A DNA stretch of 43,163 bases from Bacteroidota bacterium (GTDB lineage: Bacteria; Bacteroidota; Bacteroidia; Chitinophagales; Chitinophagaceae): assembly GCA_018268135.1 (NCBI GenBank), contig JAFDXD010000004.1:1-43163 (forward strand). Direction: 5' to 3'. Positions 16,732 through 24,301 of this stretch are shown in pieces. The notes beneath the pieces were generated by a model. It worked only from the letters and a program-made list of their open reading frames with translations, did not search any database and had not been told where the DNA came from. A program made the translations under genes and the position numbers. Each line of letters begins with the position of its first letter. Within the stretch, counting starts at the first letter, position 1.

Positions 16732-17766
16732 ATGCTTAATAAGCCTCCTACAATTAAAGATATTGCCCGTCAATTGAACATTTCTGTATCCACAGTTTCA
16801 AGAGCCATACGCAATGCTTCTGATGTAAGTGCCGAAACAAAAAAAACAGTTATGGCCCTGGTGGAAGAATTAAATTATCAACCCAACCAGTTAGCGCTCA
16901 ATTTAAGAAGCAAGCAAACGCATACCATTGGAGTGATTGTACCTAATCTTGATTATGTATTATCCATGATGGTAAGAGGTATTGATGAAGTAGCACTTGA
17001 AGCGGGCTATACCGTTATCATTTGCCAAAGCAATGAATCGTATGGAAGAGAAATTTTAAATGCAAGAAGGCTACTCGACAGAGGTGTGGATGGGTTTATA
17101 GTATCGGTTTCAAGTGAAACAAATTCATTCGACCATTTCAAAAAAATTCAGGAGAAAAATATTCCAATGGTGGTGTTTGACAGGGTTGCATCACAATTGA
17201 AAGCGCCCAGTGTAAGGATTGATAATACCGGTGGAGGATTTATGGCTACAGAGCATTTGATAGAGCAGGGTTATAAACGCATTGCAGTATTAGCTGGCCC
17301 GCAAAATCTTGAAATTAGCAATAGCAGGTTAGATGGATATAAAAATGCTTTAAAAAAACATAAAATAAAAATTGATCCAAGCCTCATCATTCATTGCGAC
17401 TTTAATCAGGATTATGCATTCTTTGCAACAGAAGAATTGCTTTCATTAAAAAAAAGGCCCGATGCCATTTTTACAATTAGTGATCGTATGGCTTTGGGCG
17501 CTATGTTGGCCATTAAAAAAAAGGGATTACAAATGCCTAATGATATTGGGCTAATTGGCTTTAATGATGAACCGGTATTAAACCTTCTTACACCAAGTAT
17601 CTCCAGCATTGAACAGCCATCATTTGAAGTAGGAAAATTAGCTGCTAAACTTTTTATAGAAACTATGCACAACATGGATAATATAGACCTTAGTGAAAGG
17701 ATAATAAAAACAAAATTAATAGCAAGGGAATCGTCTCTTAAAATCAATGCCAAAAAATTAAAATAA
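16732..17766 (+). CDS. LacI family transcriptional regulator of the alginate locus
   Basis: A 344-residue regulator. The N-terminal helix-turn-helix covers about 5-30 (TIKDIARQLNISVSTVSRAI), the hinge helix about 48-60 (YQPNQLALNLRSK), and the rest is the periplasmic-binding-protein-like effector domain (IGVIVPNLDYVLSMMV, VFDRVASQ, RIAVLAGP, IGLIGFNDEP). It is transcribed divergently from the lyase-susCD operon and is followed after 5 bp by the PL6 gene, so it shares a transcript with PL6. The likely effector is an alginate breakdown product such as DEH or KDG, by analogy with other uronate-locus LacI proteins; this is inference. Confidence 0.92.
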   Translation: MLNKPPTIKDIARQLNISVSTVSRAIRNASDVSAETKKTVMALVEELNYQPNQLALNLRSKQTHTIGVIVPNLDYVLSMMVRGIDEVALEAGYTVIICQSNESYGREILNARRLLDRGVDGFIVSVSSETNSFDHFKKIQEKNIPMVVFDRVASQLKAPSVRIDNTGGGFMATEHLIEQGYKRIAVLAGPQNLEISNSRLDGYKNALKKHKIKIDPSLIIHCDFNQDYAFFATEELLSLKKRPDAIFTISDRMALGAMLAIKKKGLQMPNDIGLIGFNDEPVLNLLTPSISSIEQPSFEVGKLAAKLFIETMHNMDNIDLSERIIKTKLIARESSLKINAKKLK

Positions 17767-17771
17767 ACAAC

Positions 17772-20009
17772 ATGAAAAAAATATTGTTTTATACTTTTTT
17801 TATAGGGGCTCTGCAAACAGCAATGGCTGAAACCATGCCTGTAAAAAACATGAGCGAATTGCAACAAGCCAATAATATGGCGAAACCCGGAGATACAATT
17901 GTATTAAAAAATGGCGAATGGAAAAATGTAAATATTGCCCTCAATTGCAATGGCACTAAAGAGCAACCCATCATCTTTAAAGCAGAAAAAGCCGGCAAAG
18001 TGGTGATTACCGGGCAGTCGAAACTCGCTATTGGCGGTAGTTTTATAGTAGTAGATGGCTTGTATTTTACCAATGGGTTTGCAGGTGATGCAGTTATAAA
18101 ATTTAGAATAAACTCTAATGAAATTGCCAACCATTGCAGGGTAACCAATACTGTTATCAATAATTTTAATAACCCAAAAAGAATGTCGGAAAATTATTGG
18201 GTAATGTTTTATGGAAAAAATAACCGGTTAGATCATTGCAGTTTTTTTGACAAAAAAAACATGGGGGTGCAGGTTGCTGTAATTTTAGATAATGAAAAAA
18301 GCTGGGAAAATTTTCATTCGATTGATCACAATTATTTTGGATTTAGGCTACCGCTTGCTTCCAACTCAGGAGAAATAATCAGGGTGGGTGTATCGGAACA
18401 ATGCCAGTATAGCTCTAACACACAAATTACCGATAATTATTTTGAGCACTGTGATGGCGAAACAGAAATTGTATCAATAAAATCGGGAAACAATGTGATA
18501 AAAAACAATCTGTTTAAAGAGTGCCAGGGCAGTGTAGTATTGCGGCATGGAAATAATAATACAGTGATAAATAATATTTTTTTAGGCAATGGTAAAGATG
18601 GCTCAGGCGGAGTAAGAATTATTAATAAAGGGCAATGGGTCATTAATAATTTATTTTACAAATGCAGGGGCGAATGGTTTAAATCTCCATTGTCAATTAT
18701 GAACGGAGTGCCCAATTCGCCTGCATTTAGGTATGTACCTGTTACAGATGCAGTAATTGCCAATAACAGCTTTATACAATGTACTCCTATTGGTTTTGGT
18801 ATTGGAAGCGATACAGAACGAACAGTGCCTCCAAAAAATGTAGCCTTTTTAAATAATGTCTTCTACAATAATATTGATAAAGAAATTTACACTAAATACG
18901 ATAGTATGGAAGGCATCCACTTTGCAGGAAATCTGGTAAGCAATTCTGTAAAGCAGGCTACTGTTGAAGGTTTTATTAAATCAAATATAAATACAAAAAA
19001 TGTTGCTGGACTACCGATTTCAAATATGTACAATCAATACCCTATTCCGGATTCTTTAATAATGGAGGGCAAAAAAAGAGGTATAACAAATTTATCCGGC
19101 TATCCCGGGTTTAAAAATGATGCATTGATATTGCAAATAGAAAAAAATGCAAAAGAAAATTGTGGTGCAAAATGGTTCAAATACCCGGTAATTTCCAAAG
19201 TAAATAAAACGGTGAGTTGTATGAATGTTTCGGAAGTAGAATCACAAATTAGTAACAATAAAAATGGCCGCCTTACAATAAATTTAAAAGGGAAAACATA
19301 CGAGTTTGAAAAAGCGCTAAATCTTTCGGGCAATATAACTTTTACAAGTAGCAACAAAACCCCTGTTAAGTTTATTTTTTCAAACAACAACTACCTGTTT
19401 CAAATAAAAGCAGGCGCTGCAGTTAGTTTTAAGAATATTGGTATTGAATTAAGTGAGGTAAATAATTTTATAACTACTGATACCACCGGAAGTTGTAACC
19501 ATAGCAATATTGTTATCAGCAATGCCAGTTTTAGTAATCTCAATGGTTGTTTTTTAAATGCAGCCAAATACAGCGTAACAGACAGCATCATTATCAGCAA
19601 TAATACATTTACTCATTGCAATGGCAAGCTGTTTAATTTTACAAATGAAACGGATAAGAAAGGCTTGTACAATGTAGAAAAATTAAAAATAGTAAATAAC
19701 AAGTTTAATGATTGCTCCGGTCAAATTCTTGCAATGCTAAGAGGAGGAAACGACGAAAGCACCATGGGGCCATACCTAATTTTTACTAACAATAATATAA
19801 GTAATTGCAATAATTCTGATGACAAACCATTGATTCATTTATTTGGTGTACAAAGGTCTGTTATTACAAATAATGATTTTTCAAATAGCAATCCCAATAA
19901 AATAATTATTCAGTATGAAGATTTGGTAAGGGCTGTACATCATTTATACAATAATAAATTCACGGGTTCAGGCAGCATAATAAAAGATAAATTTGTATTA
20001 TCTCATTAA
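17772..20009 (+). CDS. PL6 family alginate lyase, two-domain
   Basis: A 745-residue exported protein with signal peptide (ending AMA-E, about 1-19). The N-terminal 430 residues form a right-handed beta-helix of the chondroitinase-B/PL6 type, with SGEIIRVG, DGETEIVSIKSG and VVLRHGNN. Lys237 and Arg258 fall 21 residues apart, the same spacing as the catalytic Lys and Arg of chondroitinase B. A second Asn-rich beta-helix follows (about 480-745), as in two-domain PL6 alginate lyases. It cuts alginate by beta-elimination. It forms an operon with lacI, and its stop codon overlaps that of the convergent maf gene. Confidence 0.9.
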   Translation: MKKILFYTFFIGALQTAMAETMPVKNMSELQQANNMAKPGDTIVLKNGEWKNVNIALNCNGTKEQPIIFKAEKAGKVVITGQSKLAIGGSFIVVDGLYFTNGFAGDAVIKFRINSNEIANHCRVTNTVINNFNNPKRMSENYWVMFYGKNNRLDHCSFFDKKNMGVQVAVILDNEKSWENFHSIDHNYFGFRLPLASNSGEIIRVGVSEQCQYSSNTQITDNYFEHCDGETEIVSIKSGNNVIKNNLFKECQGSVVLRHGNNNTVINNIFLGNGKDGSGGVRIINKGQWVINNLFYKCRGEWFKSPLSIMNGVPNSPAFRYVPVTDAVIANNSFIQCTPIGFGIGSDTERTVPPKNVAFLNNVFYNNIDKEIYTKYDSMEGIHFAGNLVSNSVKQATVEGFIKSNINTKNVAGLPISNMYNQYPIPDSLIMEGKKRGITNLSGYPGFKNDALILQIEKNAKENCGAKWFKYPVISKVNKTVSCMNVSEVESQISNNKNGRLTINLKGKTYEFEKALNLSGNITFTSSNKTPVKFIFSNNNYLFQIKAGAAVSFKNIGIELSEVNNFITTDTTGSCNHSNIVISNASFSNLNGCFLNAAKYSVTDSIIISNNTFTHCNGKLFNFTNETDKKGLYNVEKLKIVNNKFNDCSGQILAMLRGGNDESTMGPYLIFTNNNISNCNNSDDKPLIHLFGVQRSVITNNDFSNSNPNKIIIQYEDLVRAVHHLYNNKFTGSGSIIKDKFVLSH

Positions 20010-21571: not shown

Positions 21572-22093
21572 TTATACGGAAGCAATGCTTTCATCCTCTG
21601 CCCAGTGGTTATTTAATTTGAGTACTTTTTCAATAACATCTCTCACACAACCATTGCCACCCGAAATGGGTGAAATGTAGTGTGATACCGACTTTACCTC
21701 GGGTGCTGCATCTGCCGGGCAGCAGGCCATTCCCACCATTTGCATCGGAAAAATATCAGGGATATCGTCACCCATGTACAAAACCTGGGACCAGGGTAAA
21801 TGATGTTGTGCTACATACTTCAGCAATATTTCTTTTTTATTGGTAGCGCCAAGGTAAATATCTGTTATACCTAATTTTTGCAAACGGCTTCTTACAGCTT
21901 CTGAATTACCGCCGGAGATGATGAGAATTTTATAACCTTTTTTTATAGCTAGTTGCATTGCATAGCCATCCTTTATATTCATTCTTCTAGCCATCTGTCC
22001 ATCTTCCAGCAATAGTAAAGTACCATCGGTTAATACGCCATCTACATCTAACACTATTAACTGTATGTTTTTAAAAAGAGAAAGTACATTCAT
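21572..22093 (-). CDS. kdsC: HAD phosphatase, KdsC-like
   Basis: A 173-residue type C0 HAD phosphatase without cap domain. Motif I is LDVDGVLTDG (nucleophile Asp16, general acid Asp18), motif II is ISGGNSEAV, then LGATNKKE, and motif IV is MGDDIPDI. This pattern and the size match 3-deoxy-D-manno-octulosonate 8-phosphate phosphatase of the Kdo branch of LPS synthesis, which works as a tetramer in the cytoplasm. Single-domain NeuB-linked phosphatases look similar, but no sialic acid genes are near. Confidence 0.88.
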   Translation of the reverse strand: MNVLSLFKNIQLIVLDVDGVLTDGTLLLLEDGQMARRMNIKDGYAMQLAIKKGYKILIISGGNSEAVRSRLQKLGITDIYLGATNKKEILLKYVAQHHLPWSQVLYMGDDIPDIFPMQMVGMACCPADAAPEVKSVSHYISPISGGNGCVRDVIEKVLKLNNHWAEDESIASV

Positions 22094-22142: not shown

Positions 22143-22379
22143 TTACTTTTGAGCATCCCTCCACTCATATACCCATGTACTTTGAATTTTTTCTAAATGC
22201 CCTTCATTACTCTCTTCGGGCTTGCCGGCAAAGTGTGGCAACTCCAACACCCATTTATGAAGATCTGTAAATCGTATCCTGTAAATTTTTGCTTCATTAA
22301 AATCATCTCCAAATCGTTCATAAAGTTTCAGGGCAATATCTTCATAATCGTTCCAGTAAATGGGCGGTTCAAATGTCAT
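22143..22379 (-). CDS. iscX: IscX-like Fe-S assembly protein
   Basis: A 78-residue acidic protein with the IscX/YfhJ landmarks IYWNDYEDIALKLYERF, RFTDLHKWVLELPHF and the ending IQSTWVYEWRD. IscX binds iron and IscS and tunes Fe-S cluster assembly. It lies 48 bp downstream of the ferredoxin gene on the same strand, as in isc operons, although iscS and iscU are not here. Confidence 0.9.
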   Translation of the reverse strand: MTFEPPIYWNDYEDIALKLYERFGDDFNEAKIYRIRFTDLHKWVLELPHFAGKPEESNEGHLEKIQSTWVYEWRDAQK

Positions 22380-22427: not shown

Positions 22428-22763
22428 TTACTCACCTAAAAATTGGGTTTGGTCGGGCAATTTTACAATGATATCCCCATCTCCTTCTTGCAATACACAC
22501 TGGCAGCTAAGCCTTGAGTTTAATCTTGGGTTTACTGCCCTGTCAATAAAATCTTCTTCCTTATCACTCAATTCTTCCACCATATCATCTCCCTGCTCTA
22601 AATACACATGGCAGGTGCTGCAGGCACATACTCCTCCGCAATTGTGATGCAGGTCAATATCATTCTTTAGTGCTACTTCCAAAATAGACTGGCCATCTTC
22701 CACATTATTTATCGTTATCGGATCTAATCCTTTCTGCTCAAACTTAAACGTTATATTATACAT
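22428..22763 (-). CDS. fdx: 2Fe-2S ferredoxin
   Basis: I start it at the ATG at 22761-22763 (MYNITFKFEQ), giving 111 residues; the frame is open to a TTG at 22784, but that codon lies on the -7 promoter element, so it is unlikely to be used. The cluster ligands are in CGGVCACSTCHVYL and the distal Cys in LSCQCVLQ, as in adrenodoxin-type ISC ferredoxins. It would donate electrons for Fe-S cluster assembly. The gene precedes iscX. Confidence 0.92.
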   Translation of the reverse strand: MYNITFKFEQKGLDPITINNVEDGQSILEVALKNDIDLHHNCGGVCACSTCHVYLEQGDDMVEELSDKEEDFIDRAVNPRLNSRLSCQCVLQEGDGDIIVKLPDQTQFLGE

Positions 22764-22781
22764 ATTGCAAATTTCGGAGTG

Positions 22782-22789
22782 CAAACCTA
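22782..22789 (-). promoter_or_regulatory. -7 element of the fdx-iscX promoter
   Basis: On the minus strand this reads TAGGTTTG, an exact TAnnTTTG match 18 bp upstream of the chosen fdx ATG. It helps exclude the longer TTG start at 22784. Confidence 0.45.
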
Positions 22790-22888: not shown

Positions 22889-23542
22889 ATGATTATAAAA
22901 AAATCCCTCAGAAATAAAATCATTCCTCTCTGCATCCTACTCGTTTACCTTGCTGCCTGCAATCATAAAGATAATAATCATACCAATGGAGCAGACAGCA
23001 TAAAAATTGTCAGGGCAAAAGTAGCTCCCCCGGTACCCATAAAAAAGAATACACCCAAGGCACCCATTATCAATATTATTGATACCATTGCGGCAAAGAA
23101 AATTATTTTGTATATGAAAGATAGCGCAGCTACTCAGGAGCGCATCAGCATCAAACTGGCAGAAATATATGGTACAAAAATTTCATCCGTTATCAAAAAA
23201 AATAAATTAAAAATAAATGGCTCTCCGCTAGCCTGGTACCAAACTCAAAAAGCTCCTATATTTTTTGAAGCCGGTATTCCTGTAGATAAAAAACCCGCCA
23301 AACTTCCCAAAGGTTTTTTTATAAAAAATATTGGTGGGGATAGTGCAGTAGTAGCACACTTTTTTGGCCCCTACAATCTTACTTATGAAGCGTATGAAGT
23401 ATTGAGCGATTTTGTAAAAGATAAAAAGAAAAAGAAAACCGGGCTGCCTTATGAAATATATGTAGGCGATCCTTTAGATAAAAATGGAAAACCTCTTGAC
23501 CCCTTTAGAGTACAAACAGATATTGTACAAACTTACCATTAA
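22889..23542 (+). CDS. Lipoprotein with GyrI-like effector-binding domain
   Basis: A 217-residue protein with a lipoprotein signal (lipobox LAAC, Cys24) and a Lys/Pro-rich linker to about residue 65. Residues about 70-215 look like a GyrI-like/AraC effector-binding domain: RISIKLAEIYGTKISSVIK, a middle FEAGIPVDK, VAHFFGPYNLTYEAYEVL and the end PYEIYVGDPLDK...FRVQTDI. That domain normally binds small molecules in the cytoplasm. Here it is exported with no DNA-binding part, so a ligand-binding or carrier role in the envelope is possible. It is transcribed divergently from fdx. Domain recognition is by eye. Confidence 0.68.
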   Translation: MIIKKSLRNKIIPLCILLVYLAACNHKDNNHTNGADSIKIVRAKVAPPVPIKKNTPKAPIINIIDTIAAKKIILYMKDSAATQERISIKLAEIYGTKISSVIKKNKLKINGSPLAWYQTQKAPIFFEAGIPVDKKPAKLPKGFFIKNIGGDSAVVAHFFGPYNLTYEAYEVLSDFVKDKKKKKTGLPYEIYVGDPLDKNGKPLDPFRVQTDIVQTYH

Positions 23543-23545
23543 CCA

Positions 23546-24301
23546 TTAGGGGTTCATAATACTATCTGTAAGGCGCAGATATGTTGTTCTAAGTTTTGGA
23601 TGCTGAGAGAGCAGGCGCAAATGCTTATCCATTGTATTAATATCTTTACGAATGGCCGGGCCGGTTTGTACATCTTTTGGCGAATGTTTTTGTACCCTGA
23701 TTGCCGTTTCTTTAATTAGTGGTTTCAGTAAATTAAAATCTACATTTTCTTTCTTACAAAAATCCTCGGCAATAGAGTATAGGTAATTGGTAAAATTACT
23801 CACTATCACTGCAGCAGCATGTAATTTTATACGGTCTTCATTACTGCTTCTTTGCACATCATTAGATATGCTCTTTGCAAATGCTTCAATAATATTTAAT
23901 ACTTCTGCAGATGACCCGTCTATTAAAAAAGGTATCTCCGGTAATATATCTACTTCTTTTCTCAATGTTTGCAAAGGGTACAGCACCCCATAGTTTTTAG
24001 AATATTTTTGAAGAGCTTCCATTGGAATAGCCCCGGCAGTGTGTACAATCAGTTTATCATTCTTTATGATGCTTGAAAACAAATTTTCAAAACCATAGTC
24101 TGATATGGCCAATATAACAAGGTCTGCATCATCCATTACAGGTATTGAAAAATCATTGTAAGAAGCATTAAGTTCTTCTGCCAATTCTTTTGCATGCAAT
24201 ATATTCCGGCTAATAATTTGAGAAACGGTGTGGTTAGATTTCACAATCAATCTACCTAATATTGTAGCCACATTGCCTGATCCTACAATCGCTATTTTCA
24301 T
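23546..24301 (-). CDS. DUF2520 / Rossmann-like NAD(P)-binding protein
   Basis: A 251-residue protein opening with a dinucleotide-binding motif (KIAIVGSGNVATILGRLI) and ADLVILAISDYG, followed by an all-helical C-terminal half (AAAVIVSNFTNYLYSIAEDFC, GPAIRKDINTMDKHL). This is the DUF2520-type arrangement, related to pyrroline-5-carboxylate reductase and 3-hydroxyisobutyrate dehydrogenase folds. The reaction is unknown. It converges with the GyrI-like lipoprotein gene (3 bp apart). Confidence 0.85.
   Translation of the reverse strand: MKIAIVGSGNVATILGRLIVKSNHTVSQIISRNILHAKELAEELNASYNDFSIPVMDDADLVILAISDYGFENLFSSIIKNDKLIVHTAGAIPMEALQKYSKNYGVLYPLQTLRKEVDILPEIPFLIDGSSAEVLNIIEAFAKSISNDVQRSSNEDRIKLHAAAVIVSNFTNYLYSIAEDFCKKENVDFNLLKPLIKETAIRVQKHSPKDVQTGPAIRKDINTMDKHLRLLSQHPKLRTTYLRLTDSIMNP

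Follow-up and report, generated by a model that had tools for sequence, protein, structure and literature searches.

A GyrI-like lipoprotein in a conserved chromosomal slot of a Chitinophagaceae genus, probably a reduced descendant of an exported SRPBCC-GyrI protein

Results

Genes at the locus

The stretch of DNA analysed here, referred to as the window, comprises 43,163 nucleotides, positions 1 to 43,163 of contig JAFDXD010000004.1 from a Bacteroidota bacterium of the family Chitinophagaceae. On its forward strand, at 22889..23542, the ORF listing and its translation place a gene for a GyrI-like lipoprotein of 217 aa, running from ATG to TAA. No neighbour shares its strand, and it lies within a slot bounded on the right by a DUF2520/F420_oxidored protein (23546..24301, minus strand) and on the left by a 2Fe-2S ferredoxin of the Fer2 family (22428..22784, minus strand), both recognised by family matches. 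The left flank continues with a 78-aa Fe-S assembly protein (22143..22379, minus strand; PF04384, 1.5e-25), which we take to be IscX, and with the HAD-type hydrolase that helps to define the slot (21572..22093, minus strand; family matches), presumably a KdsC-like enzyme. A UbiA-family prenyltransferase also lies near the lipoprotein gene, within this flanking block. Look-alike ORFs of 78-79 aa were noticed by eye near the ferredoxin in 13 of the 27 DUF2520 loci considered below.

No ORF of at least 80 aa is listed on the minus strand inside 22889-23542, and the single reverse frame that was translated contains stops. A scan for terminators and for promoters of the sigma-70 type gave only shuffle-level results (5 promoters against 4.0 +- 2.0; 0 terminators against 0.8). 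An operon function read from the neighbours was rejected, because the gene has no companion on its strand and the flanking block persists around an empty slot elsewhere. A chance ORF was ruled out by the presence of the gene in 50 of 59 genomes of the genus, its own counted. Elsewhere in the window (16732-20009, plus strand), a LacI-type regulator precedes a protein of 745 aa whose residues 24-412 match a chondroitinase-B-family domain; past this domain no family match was found at E <= 0.001.

Protein architecture

The N-terminus, MIIKKSLRNKIIPLCILLVYLAAC (residues 1-24, 22889..22960, plus strand), consists of basic residues, a hydrophobic core and the lipobox LAAC, the last codon being that of Cys24. 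The lipobox reported by the initial annotation is thus present, and Cys24 is identical in all 34 distinct sequences, the window protein counted; a loose lipobox pattern of our own writing fits 33 of them, the exception being L002, which has CAS before the Cys. There follows a linker of low conservation (residues 25-57, 22961..23059, plus strand) which does contain the Pro and Lys residues previously described, and then the GyrI-like domain (residues 58-217, 23060..23539, plus strand), supported by family profile, ortholog profile, relatives, model and Foldseek. On average the fraction of the 34 sequences that agree with the window protein is 0.17 in the linker, 0.19 in the signal peptide and 0.59 in the domain. 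Surface-exposed lipoproteins of Bacteroidota carry an acid-rich export signal after the Cys; at +2 to +6 the 34 rows have on average 1.1 acidic residues. From its sequence, the window protein is probably exported and lipid-anchored.

Conservation and distribution

Among the genus genomes with at least 90% completeness and at most 5% contamination, 37 of 42 carry the gene. In the wider family the window protein was matched in 19 of 195 genomes at E <= 0.001, four of which belong to the genus, and in its own genome (3.27 Mb) it matches only its own gene. The lipoprotein is conserved across the genus and scarce outside it. The named records with orthologs are metagenome-assembled genomes, labelled Ferruginibacter sp. 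(3), Chitinophagaceae (1), Bacteroidota (1) and Bacteroidetes (1). The GyrI domain of the window protein is 53-66% identical to those of the other orthologs compared, and 24 residues are invariant in the 34 distinct sequences, including C24, W116, E127, H157, G160, E189, Y191 and P195. The segment from W116 to E127 (23234..23269, plus strand) alone holds the invariant W116, P123, F126 and E127.

Assignment of the C-terminal domain

The initial annotation had proposed a GyrI-like domain and named PF06445 as the profile to search with. Taken alone, the window protein stays below the Pfam cut-off (E = 0.023, 15.4 bits against 26) and was not reported when PF06445 was scanned across its own genome; the proposal is nevertheless borne out, as 23 of 25 aligned relatives match the family at E <= 0.01, the best at 1.1e-15. 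A profile of seven orthologs retrieved only GyrI-type proteins from the PDB, with nine sequences at E <= 0.1: the Rho-tag 9rtm (5.1e-8), four CTR107 entries (1.9e-6 to 4.1e-6), CtaZ 7zhd/7zhe (5.9e-5 and 6.1e-5) and EcmrR (0.014 and 0.035). Since the relatives match PF06445 and the ortholog profile finds GyrI-type entries, the assignment is settled: sequence comparison confirms residues 58-217 as a GyrI-like domain of the PF06445 superfamily, and the opposite outcome foreseen earlier, a C-terminal region unlike GyrI, did not arise.

Structure prediction, the other check suggested at the outset, yielded models of low confidence. AlphaFold, run with seven sequences for the full length and seven for the domain, returned mean pLDDT values of 57.3 and 57.4. 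Foldseek ranks 1-33 for the domain model include 30 named GyrI-type proteins, among them CTR107/Rho-tag, STM3175, EcmrR, BmrR, BrlR, CtaZ, lin2189 and Rob; the counting of BrlR and CtaZ as GyrI-type is our assumption. The remaining three are P. aeruginosa regulators without a name (5xql, and 5yc9 twice). Over these ranks a single match reaches E <= 0.001, query TM-scores are 0.30-0.43 and rmsd is above 9. The order of strands and helices in the pLDDT-57 models fits the duplicated strand-helix-strand-strand arrangement, again at query TM-scores of 0.30-0.43. The ranking obtained with this low-confidence model is in line with a GyrI fold.

The window protein has no Pfam match to a DNA-binding domain, its N-terminus being signal peptide and linker, so on its own it would be no regulator, and a BmrR/Rob-type transcription regulator was rejected for the same reason. 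It gave no Polyketide_cyc2 match at E <= 1 that would indicate an SRPBCC domain, and NCBIfam returned one weak, irrelevant match.

Groove residues

The motif E189-I190-Y191 (23453..23461, plus strand) stands out through the identity of E189 and Y191 in 34 of 34 sequences, through its alignment to 9rtm and through the literature on the groove Glu. In that alignment E189, Y191 and D194 pair with positions 133, 135 and 138 (E133 and Y135 of CTR107/Rho-tag). The E189 column of the 25-row alignment has E in 22 rows and D in 3, and at the D194 position 31 of the 34 distinct sequences have D and the other 3 have E. By a reading of the motif, not a superposition, E189-I190-Y191 is the analogue of E185/Y187 in lin2189 and of E253 in BmrR, the latter two Glu residues being described as conserved in the groove in the accessible text of PMC5684135.

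A chromosomal slot with variable content

The setting of the gene recurs in its orthologs. All 16 orthologous loci examined besides that of the window (six from named records and ten more) have the lipoprotein between DUF2520 and the ferredoxin/HAD-hydrolase block, the only gaps being L058, without a HAD match, and L063, without a ferredoxin match. Outside the genus the same slot can hold a larger protein composed of an N-terminal helix, an SRPBCC domain and a GyrI domain. Eleven fusion loci were examined, L018 being among the fusions outside that set, and in the eight that score best (491-583 bits; 338-344 aa; seven genomes of the genera g65, g9 and g100) the fusion occupies the slot. All eight lie beside the HAD block, and six have DUF2520 on the opposite side; the two without a DUF2520 match are L066, whose contig ends close by, and L065. 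Around the other three fusions (L115, L117 and L118; 149-166 bits) none of the slot's neighbours was found. The slot genes seen share one strand relative to the flanks. In one genome, G145, two contigs (L108 and L109) carry closely similar slot regions, each with a fusion, which may be a duplication or a mixed assembly.

Three SRPBCC-only loci were also examined: L112 (G152) is inside the slot, and L113 and L114 are outside it. The gene in question, L112:8001-8549 (PF10604, E = 1.2e-11), is the reciprocal of the GyrI-only lipoprotein of the window. None of six stand-alone GyrI genes from the family (L069-L074, which correspond to L011 and L013-L017) is in the slot. DUF2520 was found in 27 of 30 chosen genomes; in 21 of these 27 loci the neighbouring block is present and the slot contains neither half, three of them being genus members without the lipoprotein, and the other six comprise G152 and five loci with different neighbours. 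Slots are variously empty, fusion-bearing or lipoprotein-bearing, so that only some of the lineages carry the gene there.

Fusion relatives and phylogeny

The window GyrI domain is 42.8% identical to that of the slot fusion L005, 41.4% to L020 and 40.9% to L006; the remaining slot fusions lie at 36-37%, except L012 at 30.6%, and the best stand-alone protein outside the genus, L011, reaches 32.6%. By sequence, the GyrI domains of the slot fusions are the closest relatives outside the genus among those compared. PF10604 (Polyketide_cyc2) is matched by 9 of the 25 aligned relatives and the same alignment holds nine fusions, the two figures being counts only. At the level of the class, 20 of 20 sampled GyrI proteins of about 340 aa match an SRPBCC profile and 19 of 20 were called as having an N-terminal hydrophobic helix, and among 20 sampled shorter GyrI proteins the lipobox pattern was present in three (L179, L180 and L183).

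In a tree of 48 domains, midpoint rooted and so with an arbitrary root, the 18 lipoproteins group as a single clade (support 99/93); sister to these genus lipoproteins, and set on a long branch, are the lipoproteins L011/L013 (95/91). The tree gives the lipoproteins no clear sister among the fusions. L180 and L183 fall apart from the clade of the window protein; they are very similar stand-alone GyrI-like lipoproteins with an LASC lipobox, from another family of the class (G423 and G393). Inspection by eye of the family's stand-alone genes found a lipobox-like signal in L011, L013 and L017 and a signal-like helix in L014-L016. Exported-looking GyrI domains are not unique to the window gene, since they occur in these six proteins and in L179, L180 and L183 as well.

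Discussion

Comparison with known GyrI-like proteins

Known GyrI-like domains include drug binders, regulators and detoxifying enzymes (excerpts of PMC5684135, PMC12744356, PMC12814168 and PMC10414762). Of the GyrI-like multidrug-binding proteins CTR107/SAV2435, CTR107, the parent of the Rho-tag 9RTM, provides the best PDB match by profile and by Foldseek. Shared with the window protein are a lone GyrI-like domain and the groove Glu and Tyr (YEIYL / YEIYV), and the window D194 corresponds in position to the site of N138A. Position 138 of CTR107 is N, and the available text of PMC12814168 reports that E36V with N138A raised the binding of a TMR dye 48-fold. However, identity to 9rtm in the Foldseek alignments is only 17-18%, and the lipobox and linker of the window protein have no counterpart in what the accessible sources mention for CTR107/SAV2435. 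BmrR, EcmrR, Rob and STM3175/YgiV likewise possess a GyrI-like ligand-binding domain, but those described as regulators add a DNA-binding domain, and STM3175 and YgiV are described, in the parts of PMC10414762 available, as devoid of the groove Glu which the window protein has.

Nearer at hand are the Bacteroidia helix-SRPBCC-GyrI proteins of about 340 aa, which share a homologous GyrI domain (up to 43% identity), the slot at eight loci and, to judge from the N-terminal helix, a predicted orientation towards the periplasm. They differ from the window protein in that they retain the SRPBCC domain and bear a helix where the latter has a lipobox.

Origin and likely function

Since a bigger membrane protein of two domains, the second of them GyrI, takes this slot in certain relatives, the lipoprotein resembles a trimmed-down version of it; and as the nearest sequences beyond the genus are fusions bearing a signal-anchor-like helix, eight of them at the same locus, the domain had probably been exported already. 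Sequence relationships thus suggest that the lipoprotein probably descends, by reduction, from a protein that was exported beforehand. This bears on the oddity raised by the initial annotation, a normally cytoplasmic domain behind a lipobox: the GyrI domain does appear to be exported, but its presence outside the cytoplasm is less of a surprise given the helix-bearing slot fusions and the 19 helices in the class-wide sample. The lipoprotein form may, moreover, predate the slot scenario, because L011/L013, which lie outside the slot, are the sister branch. Division of a fusion into two genes within the same genome was rejected, as the only other match to the fusion profile there at E <= 1 is weak and SRPBCC-type (42.6 bits).

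The account we favour, with a confidence only somewhat above even, is that reduction of a slot fusion gave a lipid-anchored, exported GyrI-like domain which binds small molecules. The ancestor in the slot would have been a two-domain, signal-anchored SRPBCC-GyrI protein; its helix-SRPBCC half would have been lost, with a lipoprotein signal and a flexible linker gained in its place and the GyrI domain still outside the cytoplasm. By analogy, the linker would hold the domain off the membrane, the cleft between two helices, with E189/Y191 at its base, would take small molecules of aromatic, often cationic or amphipathic character, and the bound compounds would be buffered or sequestered in the periplasm. 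The ligands of known relatives include rhodamines, closthioamide, albicidin and cyclopropanoids (accessible parts of PMC5684135, PMC12814168 and PMC10414762, and Foldseek entries). Judged by this analogy alone, the protein would likely serve to bind small aromatic or amphipathic compounds in the periplasm, and the conserved acidic and aromatic residues fit such a role for amphipathic molecules.

Alternative explanations

A distinctly unlikely alternative is that the cleft binds a protein or peptide, such as an immunity or envelope-assembly partner, in place of a small molecule. The precedent is ExiB, a GyrI-like DUF5085 protein whose cleft binds the glycine zipper of a toxin; that cleft is, however, lined with hydrophobic residues (both according to excerpts of PMC12744356), whereas the groove acid and Tyr are present in 34 of 34 sequences here, and the neighbours annotated or traced are not toxin-like.

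We hold it similarly improbable that the protein is a lipid or quinone carrier, with an ancestral SRPBCC-GyrI pair handling a lipophilic envelope metabolite and either half able to work alone. Such a role would agree with the Pfam description of the SRPBCC-type match (polyketide cyclase / dehydrase and lipid transport), with the finding of one half or the other in the slot of different lineages, and with the nearby UbiA-family prenyltransferase; but that gene says little about the lipoprotein, because its block also flanks empty slots, and the weak 42.6-bit match is all that the genome offers besides.

That GyrI, SRPBCC or fused genes entered the slot on several separate occasions, the shared position being coincidence or a favoured insertion site, appears very unlikely. 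In its favour are the 21 empty slots among the 27 DUF2520 loci and the related stand-alone lipoproteins and three fusions located elsewhere; the common strand of the slot genes speaks against it, as does the fact that the slot fusions are also the closest outside-genus relatives by sequence.

An exported hydrolase like YtkR7/lin2189, inactivating electrophilic toxins in the periplasm, is scarcely probable, for although the family, the E-x-Y pair (E189-x-Y191, resembling lin2189 E185/Y187 by motif) and the invariant W116 and E127 recall the cyclopropanoid hydrolases, whose lin2189 uses the acidic pair E157 and E185 with an aromatic cage (parts of PMC5684135), the second catalytic Glu, equivalent to the essential E157, was not located in the window protein, where the position 28 residues before E189 falls in a GPY region with no invariant acid and no sign of an enzyme was seen, and lin2189 (3b49) stands at Foldseek rank 16, below CTR107.

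Conclusions

The favoured account, reduction of a slot fusion to a lipid-anchored small-molecule binder, can be extended, at a probability we consider low, to a periplasmic 'sponge' of Bacteroidota: an exported multidrug-binding GyrI domain serving as a first line against amphipathic toxins and once partnered with SRPBCC, the two halves having been shed reciprocally at one locus and each working alone. In the literature searched, which leaves out most subscription journals, we recognised no publication on exported GyrI domains. Exported-looking versions turn up repeatedly in Bacteroidia, either by themselves or fused to SRPBCC; what is new here is a single slot with a GyrI lipoprotein in one genus and fusions in three other genera. 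Holding one half, both or the other half according to lineage, this slot offers a natural way to ask what the role of each half is.
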